Shown one piece after another: positions 6,365 to 52,202 of a stretch of DNA of 64,000 nucleotides. A program made the translations under genes and the position numbers. The stretch is from positions 2,356,001 to 2,420,000 of the forward strand of contig NZ_OY782755.1 of assembly GCF_963678165.1 (NCBI RefSeq), in the 5' to 3' direction. Within the stretch, counting starts at the first letter, position 1; every line of letters starts with the position of its first letter. Source of the DNA: an uncultured Acetobacteroides sp. (lineage in GTDB: Bacteria; Bacteroidota; Bacteroidia; Bacteroidales; ZOR0009). The notes under the pieces are model-generated. The model did no database searches. It worked only from the letters and a program-made list of their open reading frames with translations, and was not told where the DNA came from.

Positions 6365-6611
6365 ACGGCTTACCCTTTTTGAAAAGAGCACCTCGTAGAT
6401 TTTGTTACCTAGCGCTCAATTCGGCTCATACTCCTTAAACGCCTCAGGGGAAAATTGCATTAATAATTGGAGGTTATTGTAAGCTAACCAATGCGCACGG
6501 GAGATTATGGAAAGACCGCTAAAGAATAGCCATACACCGCTGAAGAGCGGCTTTATGCTGCTAGAAACGGGGGTGGTACGCCTTTAAATGGCAGGGAGAC
6601 GCATGCAATGC

Positions 6612-7923
6612 ACTGCTGTCCGCTAAAATAATTTAAGGTTTGAATTGCTTACAGGTTGAAAGTTCTCCGATAATTCAGCCTTGGCTAGGAACTCTTTTAG
6701 GTTCTCCTTTTCAAAAAGCGAAACGCTCAAGATTCGAAGTAATTCAAATGGCGATGACTTTGACTTCAATTCGACACCGACTAGAGCTACCAAGCAGTAG
6801 GCGATAATGCCTACATATATTTGGATTTTTACAGAGTTTTCGGAAGTTCCGTAAAATTGCTTTATCCTTAAATGCTGCTTTATCCATTTGAAGTACATCT
6901 CAATTTGCCATCTACACTTGTATAGGTATGCGATTTTATGCGCCTCTAAATCGAGGTTATTCGTAAAGAATTCTAGAGTTGCTTTCTTCTCTTCGTTGTA
7001 GTAGTAGATTATTCTCAGAGGTTTTTGATACCGAGCTTTCGCCCAACGATTCGACAATCTTATTTTTAAGTCGCGTAAAATGCCTTTTTCATGGACATCG
7101 CAGCTACATTCCTCTATAATTTCGAAGTTCATTTTCTCTTTCCTTCGCACTACAAAAAATGCACCTGCTTCATCGATTTTGTTAAGAGATAACAGTTTGA
7201 CATAGGCTTTGTCGAAAATGTAAAATGCATCCGGTTCGTATTGAAAGTAGCCCATAACGCTTTGATCCCTGACGTCATGGTCGGTGATTACATTGTAAAC
7301 CGGAATGCTTGTAAGGATGTCAAACATGGTGTGAACCTTAATTCCTCCTTTCCCATTTTGCACCTTGGACCACGAATACGCTTCCCATTTTAAAGTAACT
7401 GTTGTTGAATCCAACGCAAGCACACGATGAGGGATTCCCTCCATGAACAGCCCTTCGATGTTACCCCTTTTATCTTGAGCTATCTTAACAACTCGTTCAG
7501 CAAATAGCCGAAATATTTCCACATTTCGCTTCTCATTTGCTTCAGACAGCGTTGTGCGGCAAACGCTTTTGCCAAAGCCTAAACGATAAAACTTTGACCG
7601 ATGCGCATTAAGCGATCCGATGATGTCGCGTAAACTTTCCCGGGCTGTCAGCTGAGCCCACAGCATAACCAAGAAATGGTTCCAGCAGGTAAACGATTTT
7701 ATGTACTTGTTGCCATCGTACTTATTGACCAAATATTCGAAGTAGTCCTCAGGCAAGAACTGGCATAATTGCTTAAAAATATAGGTTCCACTATTCATTG
7801 CTTACAGTTTGTAGCTTGTCGCAAAAGTAAGCATCTGATATGTTCCGACTTTATCGCAACTGAATTAGCAATTAAACATCAATGTGTTAGTAGGTGTTTT
7901 AATAATATTTCCCGGACACTAGT
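6612..7923 (-). mobile_element. IS4-family insertion sequence, copy 2 (1312 bp)
   Basis: This element has the same length, ends and orientation as the copy at 2108-3419. GCATGCAATGC is again duplicated at 6601-6611 and 7924-7934. The two copies lie 4504 bp apart as direct repeats around the barrel gene, which gives a composite-transposon-like layout. Confidence 0.92.
6623..7798 (-). CDS. IS4-family DDE transposase, copy 2
   Basis: The 391-residue product is identical in sequence to the transposase at 2119-3294, including D130, D196 and the Y-x2-R-x3-E-x6-K motif around E300. The frame is intact and it has the same internal promoter box upstream. The absence of any difference between copies, while their flanks differ, points to a recent move. 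Confidence 0.95.
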   Translation of the reverse strand: MNSGTYIFKQLCQFLPEDYFEYLVNKYDGNKYIKSFTCWNHFLVMLWAQLTARESLRDIIGSLNAHRSKFYRLGFGKSVCRTTLSEANEKRNVEIFRLFAERVVKIAQDKRGNIEGLFMEGIPHRVLALDSTTVTLKWEAYSWSKVQNGKGGIKVHTMFDILTSIPVYNVITDHDVRDQSVMGYFQYEPDAFYIFDKAYVKLLSLNKIDEAGAFFVVRRKEKMNFEIIEECSCDVHEKGILRDLKIRLSNRWAKARYQKPLRIIYYYNEEKKATLEFFTNNLDLEAHKIAYLYKCRWQIEMYFKWIKQHLRIKQFYGTSENSVKIQIYVGIIAYCLVALVGVELKSKSSPFELLRILSVSLFEKENLKEFLAKAELSENFQPVSNSNLKLF

Positions 7924-10017: not shown

Positions 10018-10216
10018 CGTAGCGTACGCGGTAGAACCACCAGCGACATTGGGAGAATTGGCAGCGTACTGGGTAGAATTACCAGCGACATAGGGAGAAT
10101 TGGCAGCGTACTGGGTAGAATCGCCAGCAACATAGGGAGAATTGGCAGCGTACTAGGGAGAATCGCCAGCAACATAGGGAGAATTGGCAGCGTACTAGGG
10201 AGAATCACCAGCGACA
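10018..10216. repeat. Tandem array with exact 42-bp period (2 x 21)
   Basis: The marker GGCAGCG recurs at 10060, 10102, 10144 and 10186, exactly 42 bp apart. Each 42-mer contains two related 21-base halves (gaattggcagcgtactaggga and gaatcgccagcaacataggga). An additional degenerate half precedes the first unit. A minus-strand frame runs through because 42 is a multiple of three, but its product is a simple ILPSTLPILPM repeat and is not taken as a gene. Confidence 0.9.
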
Positions 10217-19921: not shown

Positions 19922-19938
19922 CACCGCATTTGAACAGA

Positions 19939-20011
19939 GATTCAGTAGCTCAGCAGGTAGAGCACATCCCTTTTAAGGATGGGGTCCTGGGTTCGAGCCC
20001 CAGCTGGATCA
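19939..20011 (+). tRNA. tRNA-Lys (UUU), copy 1
   Basis: The acceptor arms GATTCAG / CTGGATC pair over 7 bp. The D arm is GCTCAGCAGGTAGAGC, the anticodon arm is CATCC-CTTTTAA-GGATG with anticodon TTT, and the T arm is CTGGG-TTCGAGC-CCCAG. There are 73 bases to the discriminator A, and CCA is not encoded. Confidence 0.97.
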
Positions 20012-20034
20012 CAAGGTTAAAAGCATTATTCGGA

Positions 20035-20107
20035 GATTCAGTAGCTCAGCAGGTAGAGCACATCCCTTTTAAGGATGGGGTCCTGGGTTCGAGCCCCAGC
20101 TGGATCA
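20035..20107 (+). tRNA. tRNA-Lys (UUU), copy 2
   Basis: This is an exact copy of the first gene, 96 bases downstream, separated by a 23-base spacer that is itself repeated. Confidence 0.97.
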
Positions 20108-20130
20108 CAAGGTTAAAAGCATTATTCGGA

Positions 20131-20203
20131 GATTCAGTAGCTCAGCAGGTAGAGCACATCCCTTTTAAGGATGGGGTCCTGGGTTCGAGCCCCAGCTGGA
20201 TCA
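20131..20203 (+). tRNA. tRNA-Lys (UUU), copy 3
   Basis: This is the third exact copy, again 96 bases further on. The cluster ends in the terminator directly after it. Confidence 0.97.
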
Positions 20204-20204
20204 C

Positions 20205-20232
20205 AAGCCCATCAGATTTGATGGGCTTTTTT
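20205..20232 (+). terminator. Terminator of the tRNA-Lys cluster
   Basis: The 10-bp stem AAGCCCATCA / TGATGGGCTT with loop gatt is followed by a T run. Confidence 0.85.
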
Positions 20233-28881: not shown

Positions 28882-29090
28882 ACAGCACCTCTGTTTAGGT
28901 TCTGAACCTAAACGGACCACCTGTATAGGTGGTTCCGACCACCCTTACAGGTATTCCCGACCACCTGCATAGGTGTTCCGTACCACCTCAGAGGTCCAAC
29001 CGACCACCCCTATAGGTGGTAGCAACCACCCCAACAGGTATTCCCGACCACCTGCATAGGTGTTCTGTACCACCTCAGAGGCCTGCCGAA
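28882..29090. repeat. Array of 22-bp hairpin units
   Basis: ACCACC starts at 28916, 28938, 28960, 28982, 29003, 29025, 29047 and 29069, a spacing of 22 with one 21. Most units form a small hairpin with a 4-base loop, such as CCACCTgtatAGGTGG or CACCTgcatAGGTG. A block of four units (about 87 bp) is itself repeated. The remaining bases up to 29247 hold no recognisable gene. Confidence 0.88.
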
Positions 29091-39089: not shown

Positions 39090-39183
39090 TGTACTGATTT
39101 TTTAGTTATTGAAACGCTGTTGCCCTCTAGTACAATCAAAAAATGGGGATCGGCAATCGATTTGTGTCCGTCGTTTCGCGCCC

Positions 39184-39390
39184 AGCTGCGCTGTACGATC
39201 GACGACGGCGGAGTTTTGCTTCCAGCCGCGCTGTGCGTTCAACGACGGCGGAGTTTTGCTCCCAGCCACGCTGTGCGTTCAACGACGGCGGAGTTTTGCT
39301 CCCAGCCGCGCTGTACGTTCAACGACGGCGGAGTTTTGTTCCCAGCCGCGCTGTGCGTTCAACGACGGCGGAGCTTTGCTCCCAGCAACC
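39184..39390. repeat. Tandem array, five units of 40 bp
   Basis: ACGACGGCGGAG recurs at 40-base intervals (about 39202, 39242, 39282, 39322 and 39362) in units of the form ccagccgcgctgtgcgttcaacgacggcggagttttgctc. Because 40 is not a multiple of three, the same repeat is read in three frames as apparent frames of about 100 codons. None is a gene. Confidence 0.92.
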
Positions 39391-39560: not shown

Positions 39561-39723
39561 TCCTATTTCTTTTGATGGTGAATAACAAAATTGATGAACT
39601 AATTAAGGATAATCGCCTTTCTAAAATTTTATTAGCGTATTCCAATAAGAGTGGCTCCAAATGTGTAATTTGAGGCAACTTTTTCTGTTGCATACTTCTC
39701 AGCATAAGATGGAGGAACTGTAT

Positions 39724-41193
39724 ATGATTAACAGGGATAAAGAAGCAGCAAAACCAAAAGGAATAGCTGCGGCTATCGCCATTTGCATAATGCTTCTCGG
39801 CTTCAGCGCGCAAGCGGTTACCGTAGAAAACCTCAACTACGGCACATTTGGAAGGGTTACCATCTACATTCCCGACAGGCAACCCGAGGCCGTTGTGCTT
39901 TTTGTATCGGGCGATGGAGGCTGGAATAAAGGCGTGGTAAATATGGCAAAGAATATTGTCGATAAGGACGCGCTGGTTGTAGGCATCGACATCCGACAAT
40001 ACTACAAGAATATCAGGCGCCTCAACGCCAAATGCTACTATCCGGCAGGCGATTTCGAGGATCTAAGTATGACAATCCAGAAGAGGTACAAGATTAAGCA
40101 GTACCTAAAGCCAATTCTGGTGGGCTACTCATCGGGAGCAACACTGGCTTACGGCGCGCTGGCACAGGCTCCGGCAAACACCTTTAAGGGGGCAATTTCG
40201 CTGGGTTTTTGTCCTGATATTGAGACTGACAGGACGCTTTGCAGGGGTATAGGCCTATCGAGCCACGAGCTGAAGAGGAACAAGGCGTTTTACCTAGAGC
40301 CTTGCTCCCACCTTACCGAGCCTTTTATTGTGCTGCAAGGGGTCGACGATCAGGTGTGCTCGTTCGACGATGTTAAGCGCTACCTGAACGGCATGCCAAT
40401 GTGCGAATTGGTTGAGCTAAAGAAGGTAGGTCATGGCTTTTCTGTCGAGAAAAACTGGGTTCCGCAGATGCTCGCGGCCTACAGCAAAATTGTACACGAG
40501 CCCAGCTACGCCGAAAAGAAGTCGGTAAAGAGCAATGGGGTGCAACCGGTATCGGCCACTTCGCCGGCAAGCTACGAGCTGCCTTTAACCCTGATTCCAT
40601 CTACGGTAAAGGAGAATCTTCCGCTTGCCATCTTTATTTCGGGCGACGGAGGCTGGACCAGCTTCGACCAAACCGTATCGGAGATGCTTGCTAAGCGAGG
40701 CGTTCCCGTCGTAGGGCTCGATGCCCAAAGCTACTTCTGGAGCGAGAAAGATCCTAGAACAGCAGCGGTCGAGATATCCAAAGCAGCAGCCCACTACATG
40801 CAGCAATGGAACCGAAAGTCGCTTATTCTGGTTGGGTACTCCTTTGGCGCCTGCGTTGCTCCCTTCATAGCCAACCGTTTCCCCGAGATGGTAAAGGATG
40901 CGCTTAAAGAGGTCTTCTGCATATCCCCCGACGAGACTGGCGATTTCGAGATTCATATTTCGGATATGCTTAGCCTAAGCAACCGCGAGAAGTACAACGT
41001 TCTGGCCGAGGTAAAGAAGATAAAGTCGCTTAACCCGATTTGCCTGTTTGGCAACGAGGAGAGCGAAGAGCTTCGCAGCCATTTTGTGGCAGCTGGGGTA
41101 AAGGTGCAAACGCTTCCCGGCAACCACCACTTTAACGAAGACTACCAGGCGCTATCTTTGGCTATAGTTAGAGGATTAACGGGAGGAAACTAG
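39724..41193 (+). CDS. acvB: AcvB/VirJ-like protein with two hydrolase domains
   Basis: The product is about 489 residues. The start MINRDKEAAKPKG is chosen because GGAGGA lies 7 bases upstream; the frame opens at 39661. A signal peptide or anchor (IAAAIAICIMLLGFSAQA) sends it to the periplasm. Two alpha/beta-hydrolase-type domains repeat the VirJ motifs: FVSGDGGWNKG with GYSSGATLAYG, and FISGDGGWTSFDQTV with GYSFGACVAPF. Both keep the Ser elbow. AcvB of Agrobacterium hydrolyses lysyl-phosphatidylglycerol, and the mprF gene two genes downstream makes that lipid. The same function is therefore the likely one here. Confidence 0.85.
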   Translation: MINRDKEAAKPKGIAAAIAICIMLLGFSAQAVTVENLNYGTFGRVTIYIPDRQPEAVVLFVSGDGGWNKGVVNMAKNIVDKDALVVGIDIRQYYKNIRRLNAKCYYPAGDFEDLSMTIQKRYKIKQYLKPILVGYSSGATLAYGALAQAPANTFKGAISLGFCPDIETDRTLCRGIGLSSHELKRNKAFYLEPCSHLTEPFIVLQGVDDQVCSFDDVKRYLNGMPMCELVELKKVGHGFSVEKNWVPQMLAAYSKIVHEPSYAEKKSVKSNGVQPVSATSPASYELPLTLIPSTVKENLPLAIFISGDGGWTSFDQTVSEMLAKRGVPVVGLDAQSYFWSEKDPRTAAVEISKAAAHYMQQWNRKSLILVGYSFGACVAPFIANRFPEMVKDALKEVFCISPDETGDFEIHISDMLSLSNREKYNVLAEVKKIKSLNPICLFGNEESEELRSHFVAAGVKVQTLPGNHHFNEDYQALSLAIVRGLTGGN

Positions 41194-41195
41194 CA

Positions 41196-41861
41196 ATGAA
41201 AAAATCGACCAGCTACTTCATATATATTGCATCGGCAGCCTGCCTGGCAGGCTGTGTGGGTGAATTTGTTGCTTTATTCGCGTTAGGAGCGCAGTACCCC
41301 GGCTACAACCAGCTTAAGGATACCATGAGCGCGTTGGGTGCATCCATCAGCCCGGTATCTGATGCTATATCGCTTTGGTGGTGTATTGCAGGAATCCTGT
41401 TTACGCTGTATGGCATAGGCTTTAGAATGGCATTTGCCGACAAAGGGCGGTATGCCCTAGTAGCCTCCGTCCTGATTATCCTCTACGGACTTGGAGAAGG
41501 TATCGGTTCTGGAGCATTTAAGGCCGACCATGTAATGGGCGGCTCTACCATATCCAGCCTTATCCATAATACGCTGGGAGGATTTGGCGTAGCTGCCATA
41601 CTGGCGTTTCCGGCTATCATGCCAAAGGTTTTGCAAGCGAAGAAGGGCTCTGCGTTTTCGCGCTTTTCGAACATCGCTTTTGTGGTTGGTATTCTGTCTA
41701 TCCTTCTTTTTTTATTCAGATATCTGCATAACGAGCACAACTTTTTCGTTGTATATAAAGGCTTATGGCAGCGGTTATTTATGCTGAACACCTACGCCTA
41801 CCTAGCAACCATTGCCATCATCACCATTCGCAACAATCGGCAAATAGTAACCCATAAATAA
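41196..41861 (+). CDS. DUF998 family membrane protein
   Basis: The protein has 221 residues and six hydrophobic helices. MKKSTSYFIYIASAACLAGCVGEFVALFALG is followed by YPGYNQLKDTMSALGASISPVSD, a conserved loop of DUF998 proteins, and later DHVMGGSTISSLIHNTLGGFG. The function of DUF998 is not established. Its ATG is two bases after the acvB stop and is preceded by GGGAGGA. It lies between the Lys-PG hydrolase and synthase, so a role in phospholipid handling at the inner membrane is inferred. Confidence 0.82.
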   Translation: MKKSTSYFIYIASAACLAGCVGEFVALFALGAQYPGYNQLKDTMSALGASISPVSDAISLWWCIAGILFTLYGIGFRMAFADKGRYALVASVLIILYGLGEGIGSGAFKADHVMGGSTISSLIHNTLGGFGVAAILAFPAIMPKVLQAKKGSAFSRFSNIAFVVGILSILLFLFRYLHNEHNFFVVYKGLWQRLFMLNTYAYLATIAIITIRNNRQIVTHK

Positions 41862-41874
41862 TTCAGCTAAGAAT

Positions 41875-44496
41875 ATGGACCTAAGATTTTCTACTATTCA
41901 AAATGTTAGAAGCATCGCCAAGATGCGACTCCTTTACGTGCGCGACAACAGCAAGGTAATCCTGCAATTCCTGATTGCTGCGCTTTTCCTTGGTGTCGGC
42001 TTTTGGTTCTTGAAGCACGAAGGCTCCGAGCTGTTGGATGTTAGGCAGATCATTGTACAATCGAGATGGCTATGGGTATGCCTAGGCATTGTAATGACGT
42101 TTATTTACGTCATCCTGCAGGGCTACGCCTACAAGCTATCGTTTGCCATGGTAAGGCGTAATGTACCGCTATGGCTCAACATAATCATGTTTCTAAAGCG
42201 CAACTTTGTAAGCGTATTCCTTCCTGCAGGTGGCGTAACCTCGTTGGCATTCTTCTCGGGCGATATTGAAAAAGGGGGAGTTCCCAAGTCGAGCATAAAC
42301 TTTGCCTCCAGCGTTTACGCCTTTTTAGGCATCCTATCTGTTATTGTGATTGCGCTACCCATATTTACCTACTCGCTTGCCGAGGGGCTAACCGGATACT
42401 CCGAGATTGTTGCCTTGGTACTGCTTATCGTTCTGCTTGGCGGCGTATTCCTCTGCTATAAATCTATCGTTAGGAAAGGATCGGTTTACAAAGTATTGGT
42501 AAAGTACATTCCCTCTAGCGAGGTATTTCTGGGCGATATCATCAGCCATCAGGTAGATCGATTGTTGTTTGGCTACGCCTTCTTTGTTTCTGTTCTTGTT
42601 GATGTAGCAGGAATCATTCACCTATACATAGCCATGTTGGCGCTAGGCTTCTCACCTACCATCGAGTCGGCAATGCTAAGCTACTTGGTATCGGTTGTCT
42701 TTCTTATCGTATCTCCTTTTATGAGAGGATTAGGCGCCATAGAGGTTTCCATGACGTTTATTCTTACCCGATTTGGCTACAACAACGTAGAGGCCATTGC
42801 CATAACGCTGCTATACCGTTTCCTTGAGTTCTGGTTGCCGTTGGTGCTGGGCATATTCAGCTTTCTTATCAAGATTAACAAGCTGCTAATGCGGGTTATT
42901 CCGGCCCTGCTCATTTTATCGTTAGGGGTAATTAATATTCTTTCGGTAATGACAGCCTCTATTGGCGAGAGGGTAAAACTCCTGCACGATTTTATTCCAT
43001 TCGCTGTTATTAATGCCTCCAACTATTTGGTGCTGTTGGCTGGCTTTCTGATGCTTCTTACCTCCATATTTCTGATTAGAGGGCTACGAACCGCTTGGTG
43101 GATGGCCTTCCTTCTTAGCTTGGTCTCGGTAGTTGGACACCTTACCAAAGCTATCGACTACGAGGAGGCAATTATCGCTCTTTTGGTGATGGCAATGCTG
43201 ATCTTCTCCAAAAAGGAGTATGTGGTAAGAACCAATCCCCGGCTGCGAAACGTGGGGGTACGAACGGCATTGCTCAGCGTCGTAGCAGTGCTGATTTACG
43301 GAGTTGTGGGTTTCTACTTCCTCGATAAGCACCATTTCAACATCGACTTTAGCATTGGACAGAGCATCCACTACACGCTTCAGTACTACTTTATGGTTGG
43401 TAGCGACCTGATTCCTGGCGATCACTTCTCGCGCCGCTTCCTTGTTTCCATAAGTCTTTGCGGACTTATAACCCTATCTTTCCTATGCTTTACCATCGTT
43501 TATCCGTACATCGTAAAGTATTTCGGCGAACCTTCCCACATCGAAACAGCACAAAAGTTGGTGGCAAAGTATGGCAAATCCTCAGTAGACTATTTTAAAA
43601 CATACAACGATAAATTTTTCTTCTTCTCAAAGGATGAGGAAGCCTTTATTGCCTACCGGGTTGTTGCATCGTTTGCGGTTGTTTTGGAAGATCCTGTAGC
43701 GGCAGATCAAGCACAGATGAAGGCATGCATCGAGCAATTCGACAGATACTGCTTCAACAACGGTCTAAAATGCATCTACTATAGAGTGCCAGAATCGAGC
43801 CTATGCATATATGCCGAGCTGAAAAAGAAGAGGCTCTTTATTGGACAAGAGGCCGTTGTCGATCTGGAATCGTTTACTCTCGAAGGGCGTAAACGAGGTA
43901 CGCTTCGGAATGCCGTTAATAAGGTGGCCGATAAGGGCTTTAAAACTACCGTGCATACGCCTCCGCTAAAGGATGGGCTGCTGCAAAAGCTGAAAGCGGT
44001 ATCCGACGAGTGGCTAATTGATAGCGGTCGTAGCGAGATAGTGTTCTCTCAGGGAATGTTTATCTGGGAAGAGTTAAAGGAGCAAACCGTAATGACCGTC
44101 GAAAGCCCCGAGGAGAAGATTGATGCCTTCCTTAACATCATCCCAGACTATGTCGATGGCGAGATAACGTACGATCTGATTCGTAAAACAGCCGATGCCC
44201 CCAACGGCATAACCATGTTCCTGCTTATCGAGTTCTTTAAGTACGCAAAAGCAGCAGGATTTAAGTCGGTAAACTTAGGATTTGCGCCTATGTCGGGTAT
44301 CGAAGTTCCAAAAAATGCGACAGAGCGCTCCATGAAGTATGCCTACAACTCCATTCGCACATTCTCTCACTACAAAGGTTTACGCGAATTTAAGGAGAGG
44401 TTCTACCCCACTTGGAATAACATATACTTAATCTACGACCACGATTTTGATCTGCTTTCTATCCCTACAATACTGACAAAGGTGATTAAGCCGTAA
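41875..44496 (+). CDS. mprF: Bifunctional phosphatidylglycerol lysyltransferase/flippase MprF (LpiA-like)
   Basis: The protein has 873 residues. The first about 540 residues form around 14 membrane helices, including the UPF0104-type flippase region (LPAGGVTSLAFFSGDIEKGG, FLIVSPFMRGLGAIEVSMTFIL). The last about 330 residues are the DUF2156 GNAT-like catalytic domain (KYGKSSVDYFKTYNDKFFFFSKDEEAFIAYRV, LGFAPMSGIE, YPTWNNIYLIYDHDF). Such enzymes move Lys or Ala from aminoacyl-tRNA to phosphatidylglycerol and flip the product, which protects against cationic peptides. It is last in the acvB operon. The amino acid used is not readable. Confidence 0.92.
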   Translation: MDLRFSTIQNVRSIAKMRLLYVRDNSKVILQFLIAALFLGVGFWFLKHEGSELLDVRQIIVQSRWLWVCLGIVMTFIYVILQGYAYKLSFAMVRRNVPLWLNIIMFLKRNFVSVFLPAGGVTSLAFFSGDIEKGGVPKSSINFASSVYAFLGILSVIVIALPIFTYSLAEGLTGYSEIVALVLLIVLLGGVFLCYKSIVRKGSVYKVLVKYIPSSEVFLGDIISHQVDRLLFGYAFFVSVLVDVAGIIHLYIAMLALGFSPTIESAMLSYLVSVVFLIVSPFMRGLGAIEVSMTFILTRFGYNNVEAIAITLLYRFLEFWLPLVLGIFSFLIKINKLLMRVIPALLILSLGVINILSVMTASIGERVKLLHDFIPFAVINASNYLVLLAGFLMLLTSIFLIRGLRTAWWMAFLLSLVSVVGHLTKAIDYEEAIIALLVMAMLIFSKKEYVVRTNPRLRNVGVRTALLSVVAVLIYGVVGFYFLDKHHFNIDFSIGQSIHYTLQYYFMVGSDLIPGDHFSRRFLVSISLCGLITLSFLCFTIVYPYIVKYFGEPSHIETAQKLVAKYGKSSVDYFKTYNDKFFFFSKDEEAFIAYRVVASFAVVLEDPVAADQAQMKACIEQFDRYCFNNGLKCIYYRVPESSLCIYAELKKKRLFIGQEAVVDLESFTLEGRKRGTLRNAVNKVADKGFKTTVHTPPLKDGLLQKLKAVSDEWLIDSGRSEIVFSQGMFIWEELKEQTVMTVESPEEKIDAFLNIIPDYVDGEITYDLIRKTADAPNGITMFLLIEFFKYAKAAGFKSVNLGFAPMSGIEVPKNATERSMKYAYNSIRTFSHYKGLREFKERFYPTWNNIYLIYDHDFDLLSIPTILTKVIKP

Positions 44497-44520: not shown

Positions 44521-44553
44521 AAAAAGAGCACCCTTTAAAAGAGTGCTCTTTTT
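44521..44553. terminator. Bidirectional terminator between the mprF operon and the six-gene operon
   Basis: The 11-bp stem AAAAAGAGCAC / GTGCTCTTTTT has A and T runs on both sides. It is placed 24 bases after the mprF stop and 19 bases after the minus-strand TPR gene stop. Confidence 0.85.
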
Positions 44554-44571: not shown

Positions 44572-45186
44572 CTACTTAATCTGCTTAAGCCCGTCCAATG
44601 CCGAGGCATCGTTTGGCCTATACAAAAGCACCTTATTGAATAACGATTTGGCATCCGTGTTTCTTTCTAAGCGCAAGCAGGTCCATGCGCTCATCAGCAT
44701 GTTGTCGTAGTCGAAGGGGAACAGAATGAGCGATACATCAAAGTACTGCTTTGCGTTCAGGTAGTTCTTCCGGTTGTAGTAGATCATCCCCAACTGGTAG
44801 TTGGCCACCGAATTCTTAGGGTCGAGCTTGATGATCTTCATGTAGTTCTTTTCGCAGTCGTCCCACTGCTTTAGGGCCGTTAGCGGCTTTAGGACAGCCC
44901 AAAGAGGCTCTGTGGCACTGGGCATAAGGTTAGAGGCCTTTTCGTAGAAGGCAACCGACTCCTTCTGCTTTCCAGCCAGGTAGTGCAGCCATCCCAACCG
45001 TAGGTTGGTCTCATACGAGCTCGCATCGTAGGCTTTGTTGAGCACCGATATGGCATCGTCGTACTTTTTGCTTGCCTCAAGCGAGTAACTTTTCGAGAAG
45101 GCATCGATCAGGTTGCTGGTCTGCGCCTGAACGTTCAGCGCAAGCGCGAGCAGGCATACTGGGAAAAATCGCTTTAAAATTTCCAT
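44572..45186 (-). CDS. Periplasmic TPR-repeat protein
   Basis: The protein has 204 residues with a signal peptide (MEILKRFFPVCLLALALNVQAQ). Four to five TPR units follow: SLEASKKYDDAISVLNKAYDA, LRLGWLHYLAGKQKESVAFYEKA, WDDCEKNYMKIIKLDPKNS, ANYQLGMIYYNRKNYLNAKQYF and ERNTDAKSLFNKVLLYRPND. It is the last gene of the operon that begins at 51338 and overlaps the preceding barrel gene by 13 bases, so translation is probably coupled. It most likely acts as a periplasmic adaptor for the barrel. That role is inferred from context. Confidence 0.82.
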   Translation of the reverse strand: MEILKRFFPVCLLALALNVQAQTSNLIDAFSKSYSLEASKKYDDAISVLNKAYDASSYETNLRLGWLHYLAGKQKESVAFYEKASNLMPSATEPLWAVLKPLTALKQWDDCEKNYMKIIKLDPKNSVANYQLGMIYYNRKNYLNAKQYFDVSLILFPFDYDNMLMSAWTCLRLERNTDAKSLFNKVLLYRPNDASALDGLKQIK

Positions 45187-46487
45187 AGCACTGTAGTATT
45201 AAATGATTGACTCGTGTAGTGATACTTTACGATCTTGTAGGAGGTAAACGAATCGAAGTAGAGGTAGCTACCCTGGCAGCGGTTGGAGGCATACCCCGCA
45301 ATTACCTCGAAGCGCTTATGGTAGAAGCGCAGGTTGGCGCCCAAAATTCGCTTTATGGGGTCGGACGTGTTGTAGGTCGAAAAGGTGTTATCGGTGATGT
45401 AGTTATTCAGGTTGCCGTAGACGATCTTCTCCTCGTGCCACAGCCAGCTGAATATCTTCGACCCTACCGCTTGCGAAACAATCCACTGCTTACTCCCGCT
45501 GTTCTTTAGCAGCGAAACCGACGAAACCGTATGGACGTTAAGGTTGCCTAAGGGGAATACTACGAGCGAACACTCGCCCTGGTAGTGGTTCGACTTCCCG
45601 AAGTTGCTCAACACCACGCTTACCGAGGGCTTAAGGTAGCGCATTCGCCGTGCGATGCTCAGGCCTCCAGCAAAGTAGTTATTCCTCACGTTGCCATCTA
45701 TAAATCGGTACTTGTTGAGCGTACTGTTGTACTCACTGGTTAGCCACGAGGTCTCCTGCATGTAGCTGGCAACGCTCCCGGTAACGCTCCATCCACCACT
45801 AAAGGCGTAGGAAAGTGCTGCGTTCAGCTGCCCATGCTTATTCTCGAAATCTTGAACCTTACCATCGTCCTTTGTCTGAACCACGCCAACGGCTTTTGCT
45901 CTAAAGATCGAAGCGCCGTAGGTTAGCCGTAATCGGTTAAGGATGGAGTGCTGCATCGAGAAGCAGGCCCACCTCACCGCACCGTTGTACAGCGCCTCTC
46001 CGTAAATATTTTCGCTGCGCTTAATATCCCTGATTCTACCATTGGCCGTATTTTCCGATAAGGTATAGCCGCCTGCTACGGCAAGCAAGTCGGCCAGCTT
46101 TCGCCGGTAGCCTAGCCGTTGCTTGGCACTTTCCGAGAGCCAGTTCCCCGTAGCATTGGCATCCTCAACCCTTTTAAGGTAGAGGTACGATAGATAGAGG
46201 CGCTCTAGAAGCACCGAATCCGTTGCGCTGCTCATACGCCTAGCCTTCTCTAGGTGGTACGCTGCATTGTCGTAGTTACCCTTGCCAAAGTAGTGCTGCC
46301 CCACGCTCAACTCTAGGCTAAACGAAGGCGTACCTCGGCGTAGGCTATCCCTATACATGCTTCTTATCTGATGATTACCTTGCACTCCATGCTGAAGATA
46401 CACGCTACTATCTGCAGTAATGGTCGTACTTCTTGCAGATACAGCAACAGATGCAGCACAAAGCAATATGCAAATCAAGATACGCAT
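45174..46487 (-). CDS. Outer membrane protein with N-terminal TPR and C-terminal beta-barrel
   Basis: The protein has 437 residues with a signal peptide (MRILICILLCAASVAVSA). Residues 45-135 are helical TPR-like (GQHYFGKGNYDNAAYHLEKARRM, YLSYLYLKRVEDANATGNWLSE). From about 140 to the end, alternating strands end in a terminal Phe (SQSFNTTVLWKF), as in outer-membrane barrels. The arrangement recalls YaiO-type barrels with periplasmic TPRs. It overlaps both neighbours by 13 bases. It may pass a product of the operon across the outer membrane (inference). Confidence 0.75.
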   Translation of the reverse strand: MRILICILLCAASVAVSARSTTITADSSVYLQHGVQGNHQIRSMYRDSLRRGTPSFSLELSVGQHYFGKGNYDNAAYHLEKARRMSSATDSVLLERLYLSYLYLKRVEDANATGNWLSESAKQRLGYRRKLADLLAVAGGYTLSENTANGRIRDIKRSENIYGEALYNGAVRWACFSMQHSILNRLRLTYGASIFRAKAVGVVQTKDDGKVQDFENKHGQLNAALSYAFSGGWSVTGSVASYMQETSWLTSEYNSTLNKYRFIDGNVRNNYFAGGLSIARRMRYLKPSVSVVLSNFGKSNHYQGECSLVVFPLGNLNVHTVSSVSLLKNSGSKQWIVSQAVGSKIFSWLWHEEKIVYGNLNNYITDNTFSTYNTSDPIKRILGANLRFYHKRFEVIAGYASNRCQGSYLYFDSFTSYKIVKYHYTSQSFNTTVLWKF

Positions 46488-48667
46488 ATATAGTTCTCTC
46501 GCTTTTTATTTTGGGTGATAGCAAAATACCTAAAGGCATTGTTCCGTATCTCGAACTCGAAGCTAATCTTCCGAATGGCACGCTTAAGCAGCATCACGCT
46601 TACCGACGATTTAAACACAATAATGCGAGGTGAGAACAGGTCGTCAGCATATACAAACCTAGAGGTATACTCGGCGCGCATGAACGTAATAAATGGAACA
46701 AATAGGTCTTGCAACCAAGCCAGCCAACGGCAGCGGAACTGAACGAGGGGAACCTCATCAGTAACGTCAATCTTTTCGTAGTAGCCCAGCAACTGGCGGT
46801 AGGTTGCTAGGTAGAAGTAGTAGAGTAAGGACTTACGATCGCCCTCAAAGTCGGTAAAGTAGAACATCGTACCATCGTTCACAAAGTAGGCATACGACTT
46901 TGTATCGTAGCAGTAAATGTATTGGCGGTTTAGTCCATCGGTTAAAACCTCCCAGTTGCTTAAAGCGTTGGTGCTTTCATTTTTGAAGATAAACTTACGG
47001 CCCGGATAAAAGCTGTAGCATTCGCAAAGCGGAACAGACGGCACAACATTGCTTACAAACGATTTCTCCTTCGGTATCTCAAATGCCTTTAGTTCGCTCT
47101 TCCCATCCCGTTTCTCTATGAAGTACGATAGCGGATGGAATAGCGTCTTTGCTCCAATCTCTGGTGTTGCCTGCAGCTGAAAGTGAACATGGGGTTCTTG
47201 GGAGAGCCCCGAATTTCCACAGCATGCAAGTACCCTTCCCTTTTTTACATACTCGCCTACCGAAACCTTAAACGAATCCTTTTTTAGATGGCTGATCTGA
47301 GAGTACAATCCGTTTAAATGGTTAATAACAATTGTATTCCCCCAGTTGGAACCTACATTTACAATACCGATGTAGTTATCCTCTACGGTATTCAAGATGT
47401 CGTACACATACCCATCAAAAGGTGCCAGTACAGGCTTGTTGTAGCACCCGTACTCATCAATGCTTGCCCCTTGGTATTTGAACGTCTTCAATTCATCGTT
47501 GGACATAACAAAATCCAAGGCGTTGTTCCATTCACCTACATGGGTAACATTTCCGTTGTAGCTTTGGGTTACGAGCCATTCTCCTGAAAATGGAAGCGCA
47601 ATCTTAGGCAAATGCTCCATCTTAAGCCTTTTTATCGCGTTGAGATACTTGTAGATGTTCTTCTCTGGCATAAAATACTGAACTTCAGTGAGGTGAATGT
47701 ACTTACGAAGCCATCGAAATTGCAGCGTAAACAGGAACACAATGCATACAACGCAGTAAGGTAAGGTAAAGGCATCGACATTGAATACGGCCAACATCTT
47801 ACCTAGAAACATAACCATCAGCATCTGAATCGGAATGAACATAACAACATTCAGGTAGCTGTACGCATTTGGAATCACATAGAAGCATCCTAGGCTAATT
47901 GCCATAAACACATAGTTTGCCCCAAGCAGGTTGTTGTTGAAATCGTTTACGTTTGCACCAAACATCGTATAGAACGTGTAGGCAACAAAAAAGCCGATTA
48001 CGCTTAGCGAGAAGGCTATTCGCGATGAATAAAATAGGCCAATAGCAATAACAACCCCACCTAAAAAACTTTGCTGGAAGAGCGCCCCCGACAGCGTACG
48101 AAAGAACACCACCACAACATGCGGTATCGGAATTTGGTATAAGGAGCCAATTAGCTTGCTTATAATCCAAGGTTGCTTAAAAAAGGTATCACTAATTAAG
48201 CTGGGGTTGTAGTGATTTTCGGTTAAAAAAGTGAAGTTGGGCGACGAGATAGAGATAATCCAGTAGGTAAACAAAAAGGGAAGCACAAGGAATGGCAGCT
48301 TCTGCATGGCCAATAACTCTTTAAATAGCACGGTGGCTATTAGAAGCATAAATACAGCAGCAACAAAAAAGATAACAAATAGCCCTGTTGACTGAAAGTT
48401 GTGCCCTAAGGCCATTCCAAGGAATAGGGCATTTAACCCATATAGCCCCTGCTGAATCTCTACCTTACTAAGGCTGCCTGTACGGGCAAGTAGGTTTATC
48501 AGTACAACGCCCAATAGTCCAAATATTCCTACGCTTGGAGTTAGAAAGGTTACGAGCAACAAGGCCAACGCAAAAATCTTATTCTCCGAAAAAAATATCT
48601 GACTATAGCTGTTAAGCGTACTATCGAGCCAAAACTTAACCGATGTACTAAACGATATTGAGCTCAA
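46475..48667 (-). CDS. Urea transporter fused to an M23 (LytM-like) peptidase domain
   Basis: The protein has 730 residues. Residues about 15-320 are a urea-transporter-type membrane domain (FLTPSVGIFGLLGVVLINLLA, the GLYGLNALFLGMALG signature, and a second repeat after residue 195). Residues about 360-510 are an M23 domain with CGNSGLSQEPHVHFQL, which keeps the HxH zinc ligands. The first metal-binding His is replaced (WNNALDF instead of HxxxD), so peptidase activity is doubtful. About 200 further residues have no known domain. The start is TTG: no ATG occurs before residue 80, and an in-frame stop, which is the stop of the upstream gene, closes the frame five codons earlier. Confidence 0.85.
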   Translation of the reverse strand: MSSISFSTSVKFWLDSTLNSYSQIFFSENKIFALALLLVTFLTPSVGIFGLLGVVLINLLARTGSLSKVEIQQGLYGLNALFLGMALGHNFQSTGLFVIFFVAAVFMLLIATVLFKELLAMQKLPFLVLPFLFTYWIISISSPNFTFLTENHYNPSLISDTFFKQPWIISKLIGSLYQIPIPHVVVVFFRTLSGALFQQSFLGGVVIAIGLFYSSRIAFSLSVIGFFVAYTFYTMFGANVNDFNNNLLGANYVFMAISLGCFYVIPNAYSYLNVVMFIPIQMLMVMFLGKMLAVFNVDAFTLPYCVVCIVFLFTLQFRWLRKYIHLTEVQYFMPEKNIYKYLNAIKRLKMEHLPKIALPFSGEWLVTQSYNGNVTHVGEWNNALDFVMSNDELKTFKYQGASIDEYGCYNKPVLAPFDGYVYDILNTVEDNYIGIVNVGSNWGNTIVINHLNGLYSQISHLKKDSFKVSVGEYVKKGRVLACCGNSGLSQEPHVHFQLQATPEIGAKTLFHPLSYFIEKRDGKSELKAFEIPKEKSFVSNVVPSVPLCECYSFYPGRKFIFKNESTNALSNWEVLTDGLNRQYIYCYDTKSYAYFVNDGTMFYFTDFEGDRKSLLYYFYLATYRQLLGYYEKIDVTDEVPLVQFRCRWLAWLQDLFVPFITFMRAEYTSRFVYADDLFSPRIIVFKSSVSVMLLKRAIRKISFEFEIRNNAFRYFAITQNKKRENYICVS

Positions 48668-48679
48668 AACAGGTAATTT

Positions 48680-50038
48680 TTAAAGCTTGAAGTTCTTTAA
48701 ATGAGCAGGCTTACATTCGTACCTAAGCATGGTATCCAACGACTCGCTTTCGCGAATTACGTGGGTATGCCCATCCATATCAATTAGTACAATCTTTGGT
48801 CTCATGGCAATAAACTGCATCCACTGGGTCATGTTGTATGCACCAACCTTATGGATCACCACCTGATCGCCCTTGCTTAGCACGGGTAGGTTGGCACTCT
48901 CGCGAATGCAATCGATGTTCATGCATAACGGCCCATAAACTACCATATCCTCCATGTAGTCGGAGAACTCCTGCGCTGGCGATATCTTGTGGTCGTACCA
49001 AAATGCCGTAAATAGGATATTTACCCCAATGTCGATAATAAGAGCATTGCGCCCATCTGCCATTTTCTTAGATGCAATTACGCTTCCCAGTAGCCATGCG
49101 GCGTCATCCACCATCACACGGCCACTTTCCAGCATTATGGTTGGCAAATCCTCTGGTGCAAAACCGAAGTTTAGGATTGTAGAGGTTATGGCATCAGCGT
49201 AATCGTCGAGGGTTGGAATAACATCGGCCCCCTGCAGATACGACCCTTTTAGCGTATTGGACGATGCAAAACCGCCCCCCATATCTAGATACTGAATTTG
49301 CTTGTTCCAAACCTGCTTAATGTTGATGGCAAGATCGCATAGCTTCCAAGCGGCAGTAGCATACGGCTTGGCCGATAGCATAAACGTTCCAATATGGCAG
49401 TGCAGCCCCACCATCTCCATTTCTGGAATCGACATAATCTTGGTTATGGCCTCCCAGGCCTGGCCGTTTTCGTAGTTAAACCCAAACCGGCTCCACATGG
49501 GGTATATACCCGTATCCATGTTGACCCGAATGGCCACGCGAGCTGTCTGCCGGCTAGCCTGAAGCAGCTCGGCAAGCATATAGAGCTCATCAAAATGGTC
49601 GATGTGGATTAGCGACTGATTCTTTATGGCAGCCTGTAGGTCTTCGCGAGTTTTGTCGGGCCCGTTGAATATTATTTTATTGCCAGGCACGCCATTTCGT
49701 AGCGCCTTATTGTACTCGAACATGGATACCACCTCGGCCCATGAGCCCTCTTGGTGGAAGATGTTGCAAACGGCGTTGTTGTAGTTGGTTTTGTAGCTCC
49801 ACGCAAACTGTACCTTTGGGTACCTAGTTCGGAAGGCATGAACGGCATTTCGGTAGTTCATGCGCAGCTGCCGCTCCGAGATCACAAAAACAGGCGATCC
49901 GTACTTGCCGATCAACCGTTTTACAGAAACTCCTTCGATGTGCGTAACGGCCTTATACTCGGTTCTTGTTGCAAACTTATTCATGGCACCACTATTCAGC
50001 TTTTGAATGGATGGTTTTTCGTAGGTTGTGTTTTCCAT
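48680..50038 (-). CDS. Fold-III PLP-dependent decarboxylase
   Basis: The protein has 452 residues and resembles diaminopimelate and ornithine/arginine decarboxylases. The PLP lysine is in VQFAWSYKTNYN (about residue 83), HCHIGTF near 240, the glycine loop LDMGGGFAS near 275, ESGRVMV near 330, and the second-subunit catalytic motif YGPLCMNID (Cys and Asp as in C-x3-D) near 385. It should decarboxylate a basic or related amino acid, or an amino-acid adduct, and the substrate is unknown. There are 12 bases to the transporter gene and 11 from the ATP-grasp gene. LysA for lysine synthesis is an alternative, but the operon context argues against it. Confidence 0.85.
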   Translation of the reverse strand: MENTTYEKPSIQKLNSGAMNKFATRTEYKAVTHIEGVSVKRLIGKYGSPVFVISERQLRMNYRNAVHAFRTRYPKVQFAWSYKTNYNNAVCNIFHQEGSWAEVVSMFEYNKALRNGVPGNKIIFNGPDKTREDLQAAIKNQSLIHIDHFDELYMLAELLQASRQTARVAIRVNMDTGIYPMWSRFGFNYENGQAWEAITKIMSIPEMEMVGLHCHIGTFMLSAKPYATAAWKLCDLAINIKQVWNKQIQYLDMGGGFASSNTLKGSYLQGADVIPTLDDYADAITSTILNFGFAPEDLPTIMLESGRVMVDDAAWLLGSVIASKKMADGRNALIIDIGVNILFTAFWYDHKISPAQEFSDYMEDMVVYGPLCMNIDCIRESANLPVLSKGDQVVIHKVGAYNMTQWMQFIAMRPKIVLIDMDGHTHVIRESESLDTMLRYECKPAHLKNFKL

Positions 50039-50049
50039 TTCCTTATGGT

Positions 50050-51102
50050 TTATAGTTCTCCCATTGTTGACACTTTCTCGAACTCCGACAGGTTCACAAT
50101 TTGATCGTAGGAGTAGCGAACAAACATTTTTCTGGAATCATACGCGGTAAAAGGGGCGACATCTTCGCCAAGAGCCATTCGGACGAGCGCTTCGGGATGA
50201 TTTTGGCCACATCCTACCGCTAGGTATACCCAAGCGGGAAAGCGCGGATTCATCTCCAGCAGGTAGTACCGACCTTCGCGGGTCTTGATAAACTCCAGTT
50301 CGCACCCTCCCCTCCACTTCGTGTTGGCCATTAGCCTTTGGGTGATGTCGAGTAGCGCTTCATCTTCGAGGGTTATGCCGGCCCATGCCTTTCCCTTATC
50401 GGTAATGTACATCTTGCGCATGGGAATGGCTCCGATACAGTTTCCTTTGCCATCGCCGATAGCCGTTACGTTTACCTCGTCGCCAGAGATGTGCTGCTGA
50501 ATAATGATGGGAAGCCCCCACTTATGGCTGATCTTATCGAAGTGGCTAATGGCCTGTTCGCGCGATTTTGCTACAGAAGCCTCGTAGAATTTGCCCTTTA
50601 CCACTATAGGATACTTAAACTCGCCTTCGAGCTCGGCAATTTGCGAATGGTTGAAAACGACCTTGCTGGGGGGAACGCTTACGCTGTTGCGCTCGCCGAA
50701 CTCGTACAGAACGGCTTTATGCCTCGATTCGAACTGCTCGATGGTGGGCAGGAAGGTGGCTATCCCAAACTCCTGCTTCAGGCGCTTCTCGATCTTTATA
50801 AAGTTGTAGAGCTCGGCATCGAAGTTGGGAATGAGCACATCGATACTTTCGCGCTCGTTGATGTACCTAAGCCGCTCCATGAGGCTGGCCACCCCCGATG
50901 AGGGAAATGGAACAGAGTAGCTCTTATCCACCAAGTCGTGCATAAACAACCCCGGCTCCAGCGTTTCGTAGCTAAGGCCAACGATTCTAACATCGAAATA
51001 CTGACTTTCCTTTAGGGCTCGGATTACGGGAATGCCTGGTCCTGGGCTATCGATGTTGTTGATGCCGGTTACGGCAACGGTTATCTTGCGCCTCTCCATC
51101 AT
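50050..51102 (-). CDS. ATP-grasp ligase
   Basis: The protein has 350 residues. An N-terminal Rossmann-like domain (ITVAVTGINNIDSPGPGIPVIRALKE) is followed by an ATP-grasp fold: FKYPIVVKGKFYEASVAKS (ATP-binding Lys), LPIIIQQHISGDEVNVTAIGDGKG, and the metal site CELEFIKTREGRYYLLEMNPRFPAWVYLA (Glu and Asn). It is closest in character to carbamoyl-phosphate-synthase-like ligases that join a carboxylate to an amine. The first ATG overlaps the stop of the PqqD-like gene (ATGA), which indicates translational coupling. The product is probably an amide of an amino acid or peptide. Confidence 0.87.
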   Translation of the reverse strand: MMERRKITVAVTGINNIDSPGPGIPVIRALKESQYFDVRIVGLSYETLEPGLFMHDLVDKSYSVPFPSSGVASLMERLRYINERESIDVLIPNFDAELYNFIKIEKRLKQEFGIATFLPTIEQFESRHKAVLYEFGERNSVSVPPSKVVFNHSQIAELEGEFKYPIVVKGKFYEASVAKSREQAISHFDKISHKWGLPIIIQQHISGDEVNVTAIGDGKGNCIGAIPMRKMYITDKGKAWAGITLEDEALLDITQRLMANTKWRGGCELEFIKTREGRYYLLEMNPRFPAWVYLAVGCGQNHPEALVRMALGEDVAPFTAYDSRKMFVRYSYDQIVNLSEFEKVSTMGEL

Positions 51103-51338
51103 TCTATAATTTTGTTGTCTTTCAGCATCCGTAGGAAATCGTCAAGATCTTTACGCAGGGTAGCCATGCTTACTGTAAACTTTCGGCTCAGAAACTTGCG
51201 CAGGGTTTCTACATCGCGTTCCTCTTCGAGCTGCCGGATGAGCTCTAGCCCTAGTGTGTTAACGGAGAATGAATCTCCTGTTTCGGGGTTAAATACAAAG
51301 CCTGTGTCGTTAATGACAACTGATGGTTTTACCTTCAT
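51099..51338 (-). CDS. PqqD-like protein
   Basis: The protein has 79 residues. MKVKPSVVINDTGFVFNPETGDSFSVNTLGLELIRQLEEERDVETLRKFL...DLDDFLRMLKDNKIIE fits the PqqD fold: a beta hairpin ending in N-x-x-G, then three helices and an acidic C-terminal helix. PqqD domains bind leader peptides of ribosomally made peptides or act with HPr-kinase-like and ATP-grasp enzymes. It is the first gene of the six-gene operon. I found no precursor peptide on either side, so the partner could be encoded elsewhere or the protein could act as a carrier. Confidence 0.8.
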   Translation of the reverse strand: MKVKPSVVINDTGFVFNPETGDSFSVNTLGLELIRQLEEERDVETLRKFLSRKFTVSMATLRKDLDDFLRMLKDNKIIE

Positions 51339-52202
51339 GATTCTGCAAAATTTGCACGTTATGCGTTCTGTTAATCGTAGCAGTTAGTAAACAGGGCTTT
51401 CGAAAAGAAAGTTTATTTATGGTATAAAAATCTACAACAGGGTCCTTACGTCAGCGATAGCATTGACAGCTGGCCTAGCCTAGAAGCGTCGTAACGGCTG
51501 CAAAGCCAGCCTACAAAGCAGTGCCACCGGAGGAGAGGCACTGTCTCAGCAAAGACCTTTCCCCTTTTGCGTTGGCACAGCAAGGTGCTCCAGCTATCGG
51601 CCAGCCTACACTAGAGCCCCTCCTTCCGCTAGCCGCAGTCCAAAAGGGATGGACAGGGGGCGAGCAAGGCTATCTTTCAGAAAATACATATTTGCCCGAC
51701 CCCGGGCCACCATCATCGACATGATGTAAAGCCTTGCCCGACCCCGGGCCGACACTGTCAACAGCAAAATAGCACTTGCCCGACCCCGGGCCAGCACTAT
51801 CTGCAAGCAAACAGCTCTTGCCCGACCTCGGGCCAACACCATTCACAAGTAAACTGCTCTGACCCGACCCCGGGCCAAATCATCGCCGACAAAGAAGCAG
51901 GTCTCCGTCCCCTAGGCAAGCGCTACATGCCCACAGGCAGCACTAGTCGCCCCCCGGGCAAGCACGCTCCCCTGCTACATAACCCCACACCGAGGCTATA
52001 CCGCCACCAGCAGGCTACGTCATGCCGCGGCATGTACCCGCGCAGATACCGTACTTAAGCGTCTTGCTTAGGGGGAAAGTGGTGTAAGCATGTTTTCGAA
52101 AGACGATGGCTAGATGCTGCATTGTACAGGGTAGCCTTAGCTGCGCAGCCATGGCCAAACCGCTATGCCACTAATACACTATTAATCCATAACCATACTA
52201 GG
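51339..52202. other. 864-base gap, mostly repeats
   Basis: The right-hand part of the promoter for the operon on the left must lie near 51340-51450. A gcaaaattt stretch sits just upstream of the PqqD-like ATG, but no convincing -7/-33 pair is visible. From 51689 to about 51880 lies the 42-bp array. The GC-rich remainder (51900-52200) has no coding frame I trust. Confidence 0.5.
51689..51880. repeat. Array of five units with exact 42-bp period
   Basis: The core GCCCGACCCCGGGC begins at 51694, 51736, 51778, 51820 and 51862, always 42 apart, with one or two changes in the last units. Each core is a 5-bp hairpin with a 4-base loop (GCCCG accc CGGGC). The sequences between cores are only loosely similar, so the regular spacing is the main conserved property. 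Confidence 0.9.

Follow-up and report, generated by a model that had tools for sequence, protein, structure and literature searches.

What is the partner of a peptide-binding protein in an operon that appears to encode no peptide for it? The question is raised by six open reading frames (ORFs), named here A to F, on the minus strand at 44572..51338 of a 64,000-nucleotide window from an uncultured Acetobacteroides species of the Bacteroidota (NCBI RefSeq assembly GCF_963678165.1, contig NZ_OY782755.1, positions 2,356,001 to 2,420,000); the assembly holding the window is a single contig of 4.3 Mb. They encode, in turn, a discrete PqqD-type RiPP recognition element (RRE; RiPP, ribosomally synthesised and post-translationally modified peptide), an ATP-grasp ligase, a fold-III decarboxylase dependent on pyridoxal phosphate (PLP), a urea transporter (UT) fused to an M23 peptidase domain, a putative outer-membrane barrel protein and a tetratricopeptide repeat (TPR) protein. 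The original prediction, made from the DNA letters alone, treated the six as one functional unit and remarked that no precursor peptide is visible. The genes are indeed kept together across relatives, but the remark on the precursor needs revision. A leader motif is present on the decarboxylase itself, no other recurrent carrier was found, and it is apparently the N-terminus of C that supplies the leader.

Gene A (51099-51338, minus strand, 79 residues) scores 41.5 bits against Pfam PqqD (PF05402, E 1.7e-10), above the family cut-off of 23.4, and the predicted PqqD domain is of the RRE type. Profile comparison with solved structures places TbiB1 first (5v1u/5v1v, 1.1e-12), followed by TfuB1 (2.3e-8). 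In known systems, as far as the available portions of that literature go, RRE domains bring peptides to modifying enzymes, and the discrete lasso-type RREs recognise leaders of the form [Y/W]xxPx[LVIFA] (PMC13381572, excerpt). The leader-cleft residues were mapped onto A from the published passages on the PbaB1 complex. Most are conserved in 106 A proteins, with Phe68 in 101, Leu72 in 103, Ile33 in 99, Tyr or Phe54 in all 106 and Asp64 in 95; Thr is common at three further positions. Asp64 (codon 51147-51149, minus strand) corresponds, by alignment and those passages, to Asp70 of LppB and Gln79 of PbaB1. The text available on LppB describes a hydrogen bond from Asp70 to the leader Tyr.

The candidate partner is a leader-like tag at residues 6-23 of C (49970-50023, minus strand), assigned on motif conservation, disorder and occurrence on C only. 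When the N-termini of C were located via the enzyme body and not via the tag, 311 anchored matches gave 265 distinct sequences (eight matches without the anchor, L156, L143, L117, L243, L263, L316, L362 and L345, were left out). All 265 carry [YF]xxPx[ILV], and 259 the narrower [YF]ExPx[ILV]; a motif of the RRE-partner type, with Tyr or Phe first, thus stands in the same locus as A. The Lys of a following NKFG motif is kept in 264, and in four sequences Ser or Ala stands behind it. An unselected alignment of 19 C sequences has Pro9 and Lys21 invariant and Glu7 in at least 90%, and by the anchor method a strict tag pattern is found in 92 of 102 C loci, five others lacking the anchor. The pattern used for a sequence logo itself required [YF], E or D, P and K in C matches of at least 690 bits, and was fitted by 100 of 102 (not by L143 and L156); since it pre-selects the tag residues, the unselected counts are those of the 19-row alignment and the anchor-based sets.

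The tag is as conserved as the enzyme that bears it, with a mean majority fraction over 59 rows of 0.81 for residues 6-23 and 0.78 for residues 34-440. In an AlphaFold2 model of C (mean predicted local distance difference test score, pLDDT, 82.4) the body is placed at high confidence and residues 1-27 fall below 50, suggesting a disordered, unpacked segment. Profile columns 1-26 lie outside the best alignment of all 45 Protein Data Bank matches, each of which starts at column 27 or later.

Is the tag confined to C? We searched a 60-genome set comprising the genome of the window, two others of its genus and 57 more of the order. The tag profile matched once per genome, always on C, in exactly the 25 genomes that hold B; no second tagged ORF or tag-only peptide was found in the 60, the first match after the 25 C proteins having E 0.047. 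Among 30,393 ORFs from 100 loci an extended motif picked out 97 C ORFs and ten scattered others. No separate precursor with this leader recurs in those loci, where precursors lacking the motif were not sought.

If A binds the tag then, given the bond from LppB Asp70 to the leader Tyr, a Phe in place of the tag Tyr should release residue 64. This residue had been named from the published complexes ahead of the covariation test. The first set held 142 A-C pairs, 125 of them distinct (the tag could not be read in L048, which ends KFN, or in L156, L143 and L117). Tyr occurs with Asp64 in 106 and with another state in two (one Asn, one truncated A), and Phe occurs never with Asp and with other residues in 17. 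The second set came from order-level and class-level searches (178 loci), with A in 173, a piece of C in 169 and a readable tag in 166 (unread in L243, split; L370, NQFG; L342, fragment). It gave 161 pairs, from which 28 were removed because their B was already in the first set; 132 distinct pairs were left, or 129 with the misread motifs of L263, L316 and L399 excluded. Here Tyr is found with Asp in 88, Asn in 14 and His in two, and Phe with Tyr in 14, Ser in eight and Ala in three. Pooled (254 pairs, truncated A excluded), Tyr goes with Asp, Asn or His in 212 of 212 and Phe with Asp or Asn in 0 of 42, one Phe row having His.

In both sets the lowest Fisher p among the A columns is that of position 64, the p values not being corrected for the tree. 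Tyr and Phe replace each other in the tag about ten times on a B tree built with FastTree, and a correlated-change likelihood test on the B tree, coding the majority state against the rest, gives a likelihood ratio (LR) of 39.4 at position 64. The same coding applied to 48 other A columns with minority states of 8-60% gives LR values of 0.8-19.0. Values of 79.4 (Asp and Asn against the rest) and 88.7 (Asp, Asn and His against the rest) come from groupings picked after the states had been seen. Given the kept motif, the disordered tag, its single occurrence per genome on C and the covariation with residue 64, A very probably binds C by direct contact.

What kind of enzyme carries the tag? Gene C (48680-50038, minus strand, 452 residues, 11 nt from B) matches Pfam Orn_Arg_deC_N (4.7e-32) and Orn_DAP_Arg_deC (4.8e-13). 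Its nearest relative in profile searches of the Protein Data Bank is N-citrylornithine decarboxylase (7kh2, 9e-80), ahead of diaminopimelate decarboxylase (DAPDC, 5e-59) and BtrK (3.3e-40). C and FigC, the N-citrylornithine enzyme, share Cys-Met in a loop (CMNID in C) where the aligned DAPDC has Cys-Glu. That loop sets specificity, and FigC acts on an amide conjugate and works with a siderophore synthetase, according to the available part of PMC7857480. BtrK acts on a glutamyl carrier protein, and the excerpt of PMC8503589 lists both BtrK and MccE among fold-III decarboxylases whose substrates are conjugates or carrier-bound. C reaches 225 bits against a lysA cut-off of 297.9, and the true lysA of the genome lies elsewhere (G000:C1:3002614, 380 bits), so that C is not its sole lysA. 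Nor is it FslC (NF041039, 224.8 against a 500-bit cut-off); FslC/FigC is only the nearest solved relative.

Gene B (50050-51102, minus strand, 350 residues, overlapping A by 4 nt) is by family and profile matches a carbamoyl-phosphate-synthase-like ATP-grasp ligase (ATPgrasp_Ter, 3.1e-9), and the pairing of an ATP-grasp enzyme with a fold-III decarboxylase is upheld by the domain matches. In comparison with the graspetide ligases only MvdC was met, at E 0.07 and far behind PRK12767-type matches; no tree against those ligases was made.

Gene D (46475-48667, minus strand, 730 residues, TTG start, 12 nt from C) holds three parts. Residues 5-346 (47630-48655) form an SLC14-like UT channel domain by both fold and family score (Pfam UT, 1.3e-41), residues 355-530 (47078-47605) an M23 domain by fold and family (Peptidase_M23, 1.6e-14), and residues 545-730 (46478-47035) a C-terminal domain that secondary structure marks as beta-rich; structural fold matches barely cover the last 185 residues. 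The M23 ligands His376, Asp385, His460, His493 and His495 are identical in all 53 aligned D proteins. The first His and Asp are spaced by eight residues, where the usual M23 spacing is three. The density of Lys and Arg is higher in the UT-M23 linker than in the central loop in 53 of 53 proteins, and both ends carry more net charge than that loop in 52 of 53. Charge and fold together predict a cytoplasmic and not an outside position for the M23 domain.

Gene E (45174-46487, minus strand, overlapping D by 13 nt) has weak N-terminal TPRs and a putative outer-membrane barrel at its C-terminus. The copy in the window has no Pfam match at 0.01; TPR_1 is matched by 15 of 30 members of the E alignment. 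Gene F (44572-45186, minus strand, 204 residues, 13 nt overlap with E) is a TPR protein (TPR_2, 3.1e-18) with an N-terminus that looks signal-like by eye. Behind it stands a terminator-like hairpin of 15 pairs with a T tail (44521-44553, minus strand), as the original prediction had it. A scan of the window gave four terminator-like and three promoter-like sites, both under the means of shuffled sequence (7.8 and 9.7), so the hairpin is supported by its length and place alone; the same scan identified no promoter for the operon. The predicted strand, overlaps and gaps agree with the coordinates given here, and Pfam backs the domain names for every gene except E. A GC-rich 42-bp tandem array of 4.5 copies (51692-51878) lies directly upstream of the operon.

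Do the six genes belong together? A search with B, which has at least 544 relatives, yielded 80 named loci, 49 of which extend far enough in either direction. All 49 hold A, B and C; D and F are each present in 48, E in 47 and the complete set of six in 47; the exceptions are L146, where E was not recognised, and L158, which has ABC only. The order ABCDEF is seen in 42 of the 49, and five more have F ahead of A; such recurrence across the phylum argues against chance. A, B and C share a strand in all 106 loci bearing at least three of the genes, and A adjoins B wherever the locus extends far enough, except in L086 and L169 (A about 1.9 kb off). Among 395 genomes sampled evenly over the phylum, B and D each occur in 34, the identical 34. 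Twenty divergent phylum loci all have A, B, C and D (D split in L180), and in those inspected a short barrel protein lies behind F (L174, L175, L188) or between D and F (L170). No fusions among genes A to F were found in two ORF sets, E/F pairs not being included.

The same holds within the order. D, full-length or nearly so, is found in 25 of the 60 genomes, the 24 copies other than that of the window being 35-39% identical to it, and the gene order A-B-C-D-E-F recurs around these loci; G024 adds a contig-end fragment of D. B occurs in 25 genomes, and strong A matches in those 25 and in G018, where D stands at a contig start and B was not found. Some loci are split: G028 has A-B, C and D-E-F on three contigs, G059 has A-B, C and D on three, and G055 has A-B-C and D on two (E and F were sought only at the D locus in G055 and G059). 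With A to D all present there on separate contigs, these four persist without close linkage. Co-occurrence in the Bacteroidota, the check proposed with the original prediction, is therefore found, with recurring gene order. As a marker at E 1e-60 or better B is present in 34 of 395 phylum, 76 of 395 class and 154 of 393 order sample genomes, a frequency which makes an uncharacterised, common Bacteroidota metabolite likely. In the tree some rows titled as metagenome-assembled genomes of Bifidobacterium and Kuenenia cluster among the Bacteroidota; those titles are probably binning names.

How might such a system work? The reading we favour, at slightly better than even confidence, is an RRE-scaffolded small-molecule system. 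A, as a lasso-type RRE, would bind the leader-like tag of C and bring C or its tag to B. On a substrate of the amino-acid type B would form an amide (or acyl-phosphate), and C would strip the conjugate of its alpha-carboxylate, a reaction shared with its relatives FigC and BtrK. This small amide could pass the UT channel of D, the cytoplasm-facing M23 domain processing or gating the cargo, and E and F may carry it onward at the outer membrane. We infer the substrate, the order of the reactions, the direction of transport and the roles of the M23 domain, E and F.

Several observations sit uneasily with this scaffold. Of the cleft positions of A, 26, 29 and 56 are less strictly kept: 40, 20 and 31 of the 106 proteins, respectively, have Thr there. 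Lys21 of the tag is replaced by Gln in L370 (NQFG), one of the 265 N-termini. On supported branches of the FastTree tree the tag makes four independent switches (mean 3.9 concordant, 0 opposed, sign test p 0.125), and with only four independent pairs this conservative test lacks power. The A-B adjacency is kept where C has moved away, so A's closest partner may be B, and the tag then a substrate and not a docking handle. E is unrecognised in two of the 49 loci and D and F in one each; among the 20 divergent loci F was not seen in three (L169, L172, L180), and those inspected for the barrel protein have a short one. In L042 and L049 D is found on its own. The position of the pore residue Glu187 of dvUT is Ala, Ser, Gly or Thr in 52 of 53 D proteins and Tyr in one, so that urea may not be the cargo of D. 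A, B, D and the tag were not found in the two genomes of the same genus, which makes the distribution patchy.

The alternative that fares best, plausible though not one we favour, is that the tag serves assembly or regulation and nothing else, with A, B and C forming a stable metabolon in which the metabolite never meets the tag. Covariation reports contact, not chemistry, and the NKFG segment might dock at a second place, B for instance. The known RRE domains, in the accounts available, present peptides that become modified, which speaks for a closer involvement of the tag.

Could the tag be the substrate itself? A would then present the N-terminus of C to B for modification, for example at Lys21, C would carry its own peptide carrier and the M23 domain would cut the product free. 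A-B linkage is tighter than A-C linkage, NKFG lies outside the RRE motif yet is equally conserved, and RREs usually deliver peptides to a modifying enzyme, going by the excerpted literature. Substrates bound to a carrier or a peptide are known for fold-III enzymes, BtrK and MccE among them (PMC8503589, in part), and the M23 domain, its five ligand positions intact, is predicted to face the cytoplasm. However the Gln of L370 speaks against a strict need for the lysine, the 60 genomes hold no separate tag-only peptide, and one enzyme molecule would be consumed or reloaded per product. We consider this possible but doubtful. Unlikelier again, and the boldest of the readings compatible with the data, is a self-carrier enzyme, in which the RRE presents the C leader to B, a small acid or amino acid is loaded on NKFG, the arm swings its load into the PLP site and the M23 domain frees the product at the pore for export. 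If true, RREs would here be used in a new way, and tethered biosynthesis coupled to transport would likewise take a new form.

That the tag binds a partner other than A, the covariation being a matter of shared ancestry, we judge improbable. It is true that in the first tree the 17 Phe-type rows all belong to a single clade of 21 rows, but nested among them are four rows with a Tyr tag, and these have Asp (three) or Asn (one). With like coding, position 64 has an LR twice as high as the best of the 48 control columns, and the position was chosen before the test. Least credible by far is a reading without joint function, in which D is a channel that scavenges urea or nitrogen and C a redundant diaminopimelate decarboxylase. 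Nothing but the family-level names favours it: lysA lies elsewhere with C under its cut-off, the CMNID loop differs from the Cys-Glu of DAPDC, and the shared 34 of 395 genomes refute the strong form.

Returning to the RRE-scaffolded reading, how does it compare with described systems? A is a sequence relative of TbiB1 and resembles the discrete RREs of the lasso and LPP pathways (TbiB1, TfuB1/FusB1, PbaB1, LppB) in most cleft residues and in the partner motif [YF]xxPx[ILV]; unlike theirs, the motif rides on a 450-residue enzyme, and a separate peptide with it was not found. An asparagine-synthetase-like lasso cyclase or a B2 protease was not seen among the six genes or the scanned neighbour representatives, no search having been aimed at them. 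C resembles FigC and FslC of rhizoferrin biosynthesis, its closest solved relatives, with Met beside the catalytic Cys; in contrast, the tag region of C is unaligned, and their partner, in the text available, is a siderophore synthetase and not an ATP-grasp enzyme with an RRE.

Butirosin biosynthesis (BtrJ/BtrI/BtrK) pairs an ATP-grasp ligase, BtrJ, with a fold-III decarboxylase whose substrate is a carrier-bound amino acid; BtrK is among the matches of C. The carrier there is an acyl carrier protein, and none is encoded among A to F. Pearlin pathways also build a small molecule on a ribosomal peptide but, in the available portion of PMC9303977, an aminoacyl-tRNA ligase loads a free carrier peptide, and neither is among A to F. 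D departs from the SLC14/UT channels and LytM-type M23 peptidases in fusing both in one chain, in the predicted cytoplasmic M23 domain and in the replaced pore Glu187.

The literature searched, which was thin on subscription papers, yielded no paper on a UT-M23 fusion and no description of the six-gene combination; as the original prediction held, the operon is apparently undescribed so far. A survey that maps RRE recognition motifs in RiPP contexts (PMC12710340) has no enzyme-borne leader in its available text, and the PADLOC defence models gave no match for the six proteins at E 0.001. RREs serve as beacons for RiPP pathway discovery. An RRE that recognises a tag on a metabolic enzyme, as A very probably does, would widen the roles of these domains and might account for RRE genes found with no precursor.

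Recurrent neighbours of the operon (757 ORFs of at least 90 residues from 81 loci, with one representative of each scanned) are mainly regulators, with histidine kinases in 16 loci, AraC-type proteins in 15, LytTR response regulators in 14 and sigma-70/ECF factors in ten. They vary between loci and are therefore not counted as core parts. Upstream of A lie a hybrid histidine kinase in L110 (6529-8760, Pfam) and, by eye, apparent response regulators and a kinase in L099 (2456-4669) and a sigma factor with small proteins in L128 (6715-8557). Lipoprotein-like genes precede D in L036 (7979-9475, PKD domains), L037 (6957-8132) and L049 (7698-8981, leucine-rich repeats). A second copy of F lies downstream of the first in L088, L090, L141 and L153, and a protein with VIT and FlgD-type Ig domains is found near the operon in nine loci of the divergent group (for example L171, 11812-14031; Pfam of one).

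Convergent with the operon lies a probable second one (39661-44496, plus strand). Its genes encode a VirJ/AcvB-like protein, in which VirJ stretches occur twice, a DUF998 protein and a bifunctional MprF that scores 554.9 bits where the cut-off is 600. The MprF-AcvB pairing elsewhere concerns the making and breaking of lysyl-lipids. These genes were considered as a part of the system and set aside, with no match in 25 loci of the order. Elsewhere in the window two DDE transposase ORFs with the same 391-residue translation (2119-3294 and 6623-7798; Pfam of the first) flank the gene of a TonB-dependent-receptor-like outer-membrane protein (3842-6391) in the manner of a composite transposon. Three identical-looking tRNA-Lys (TTT) genes stand in tandem at 19937-20207 with a 96-bp unit, and further intergenic tandem arrays lie at 1720-2039, 10021-10216, 28911-29081 and 39173-39386.

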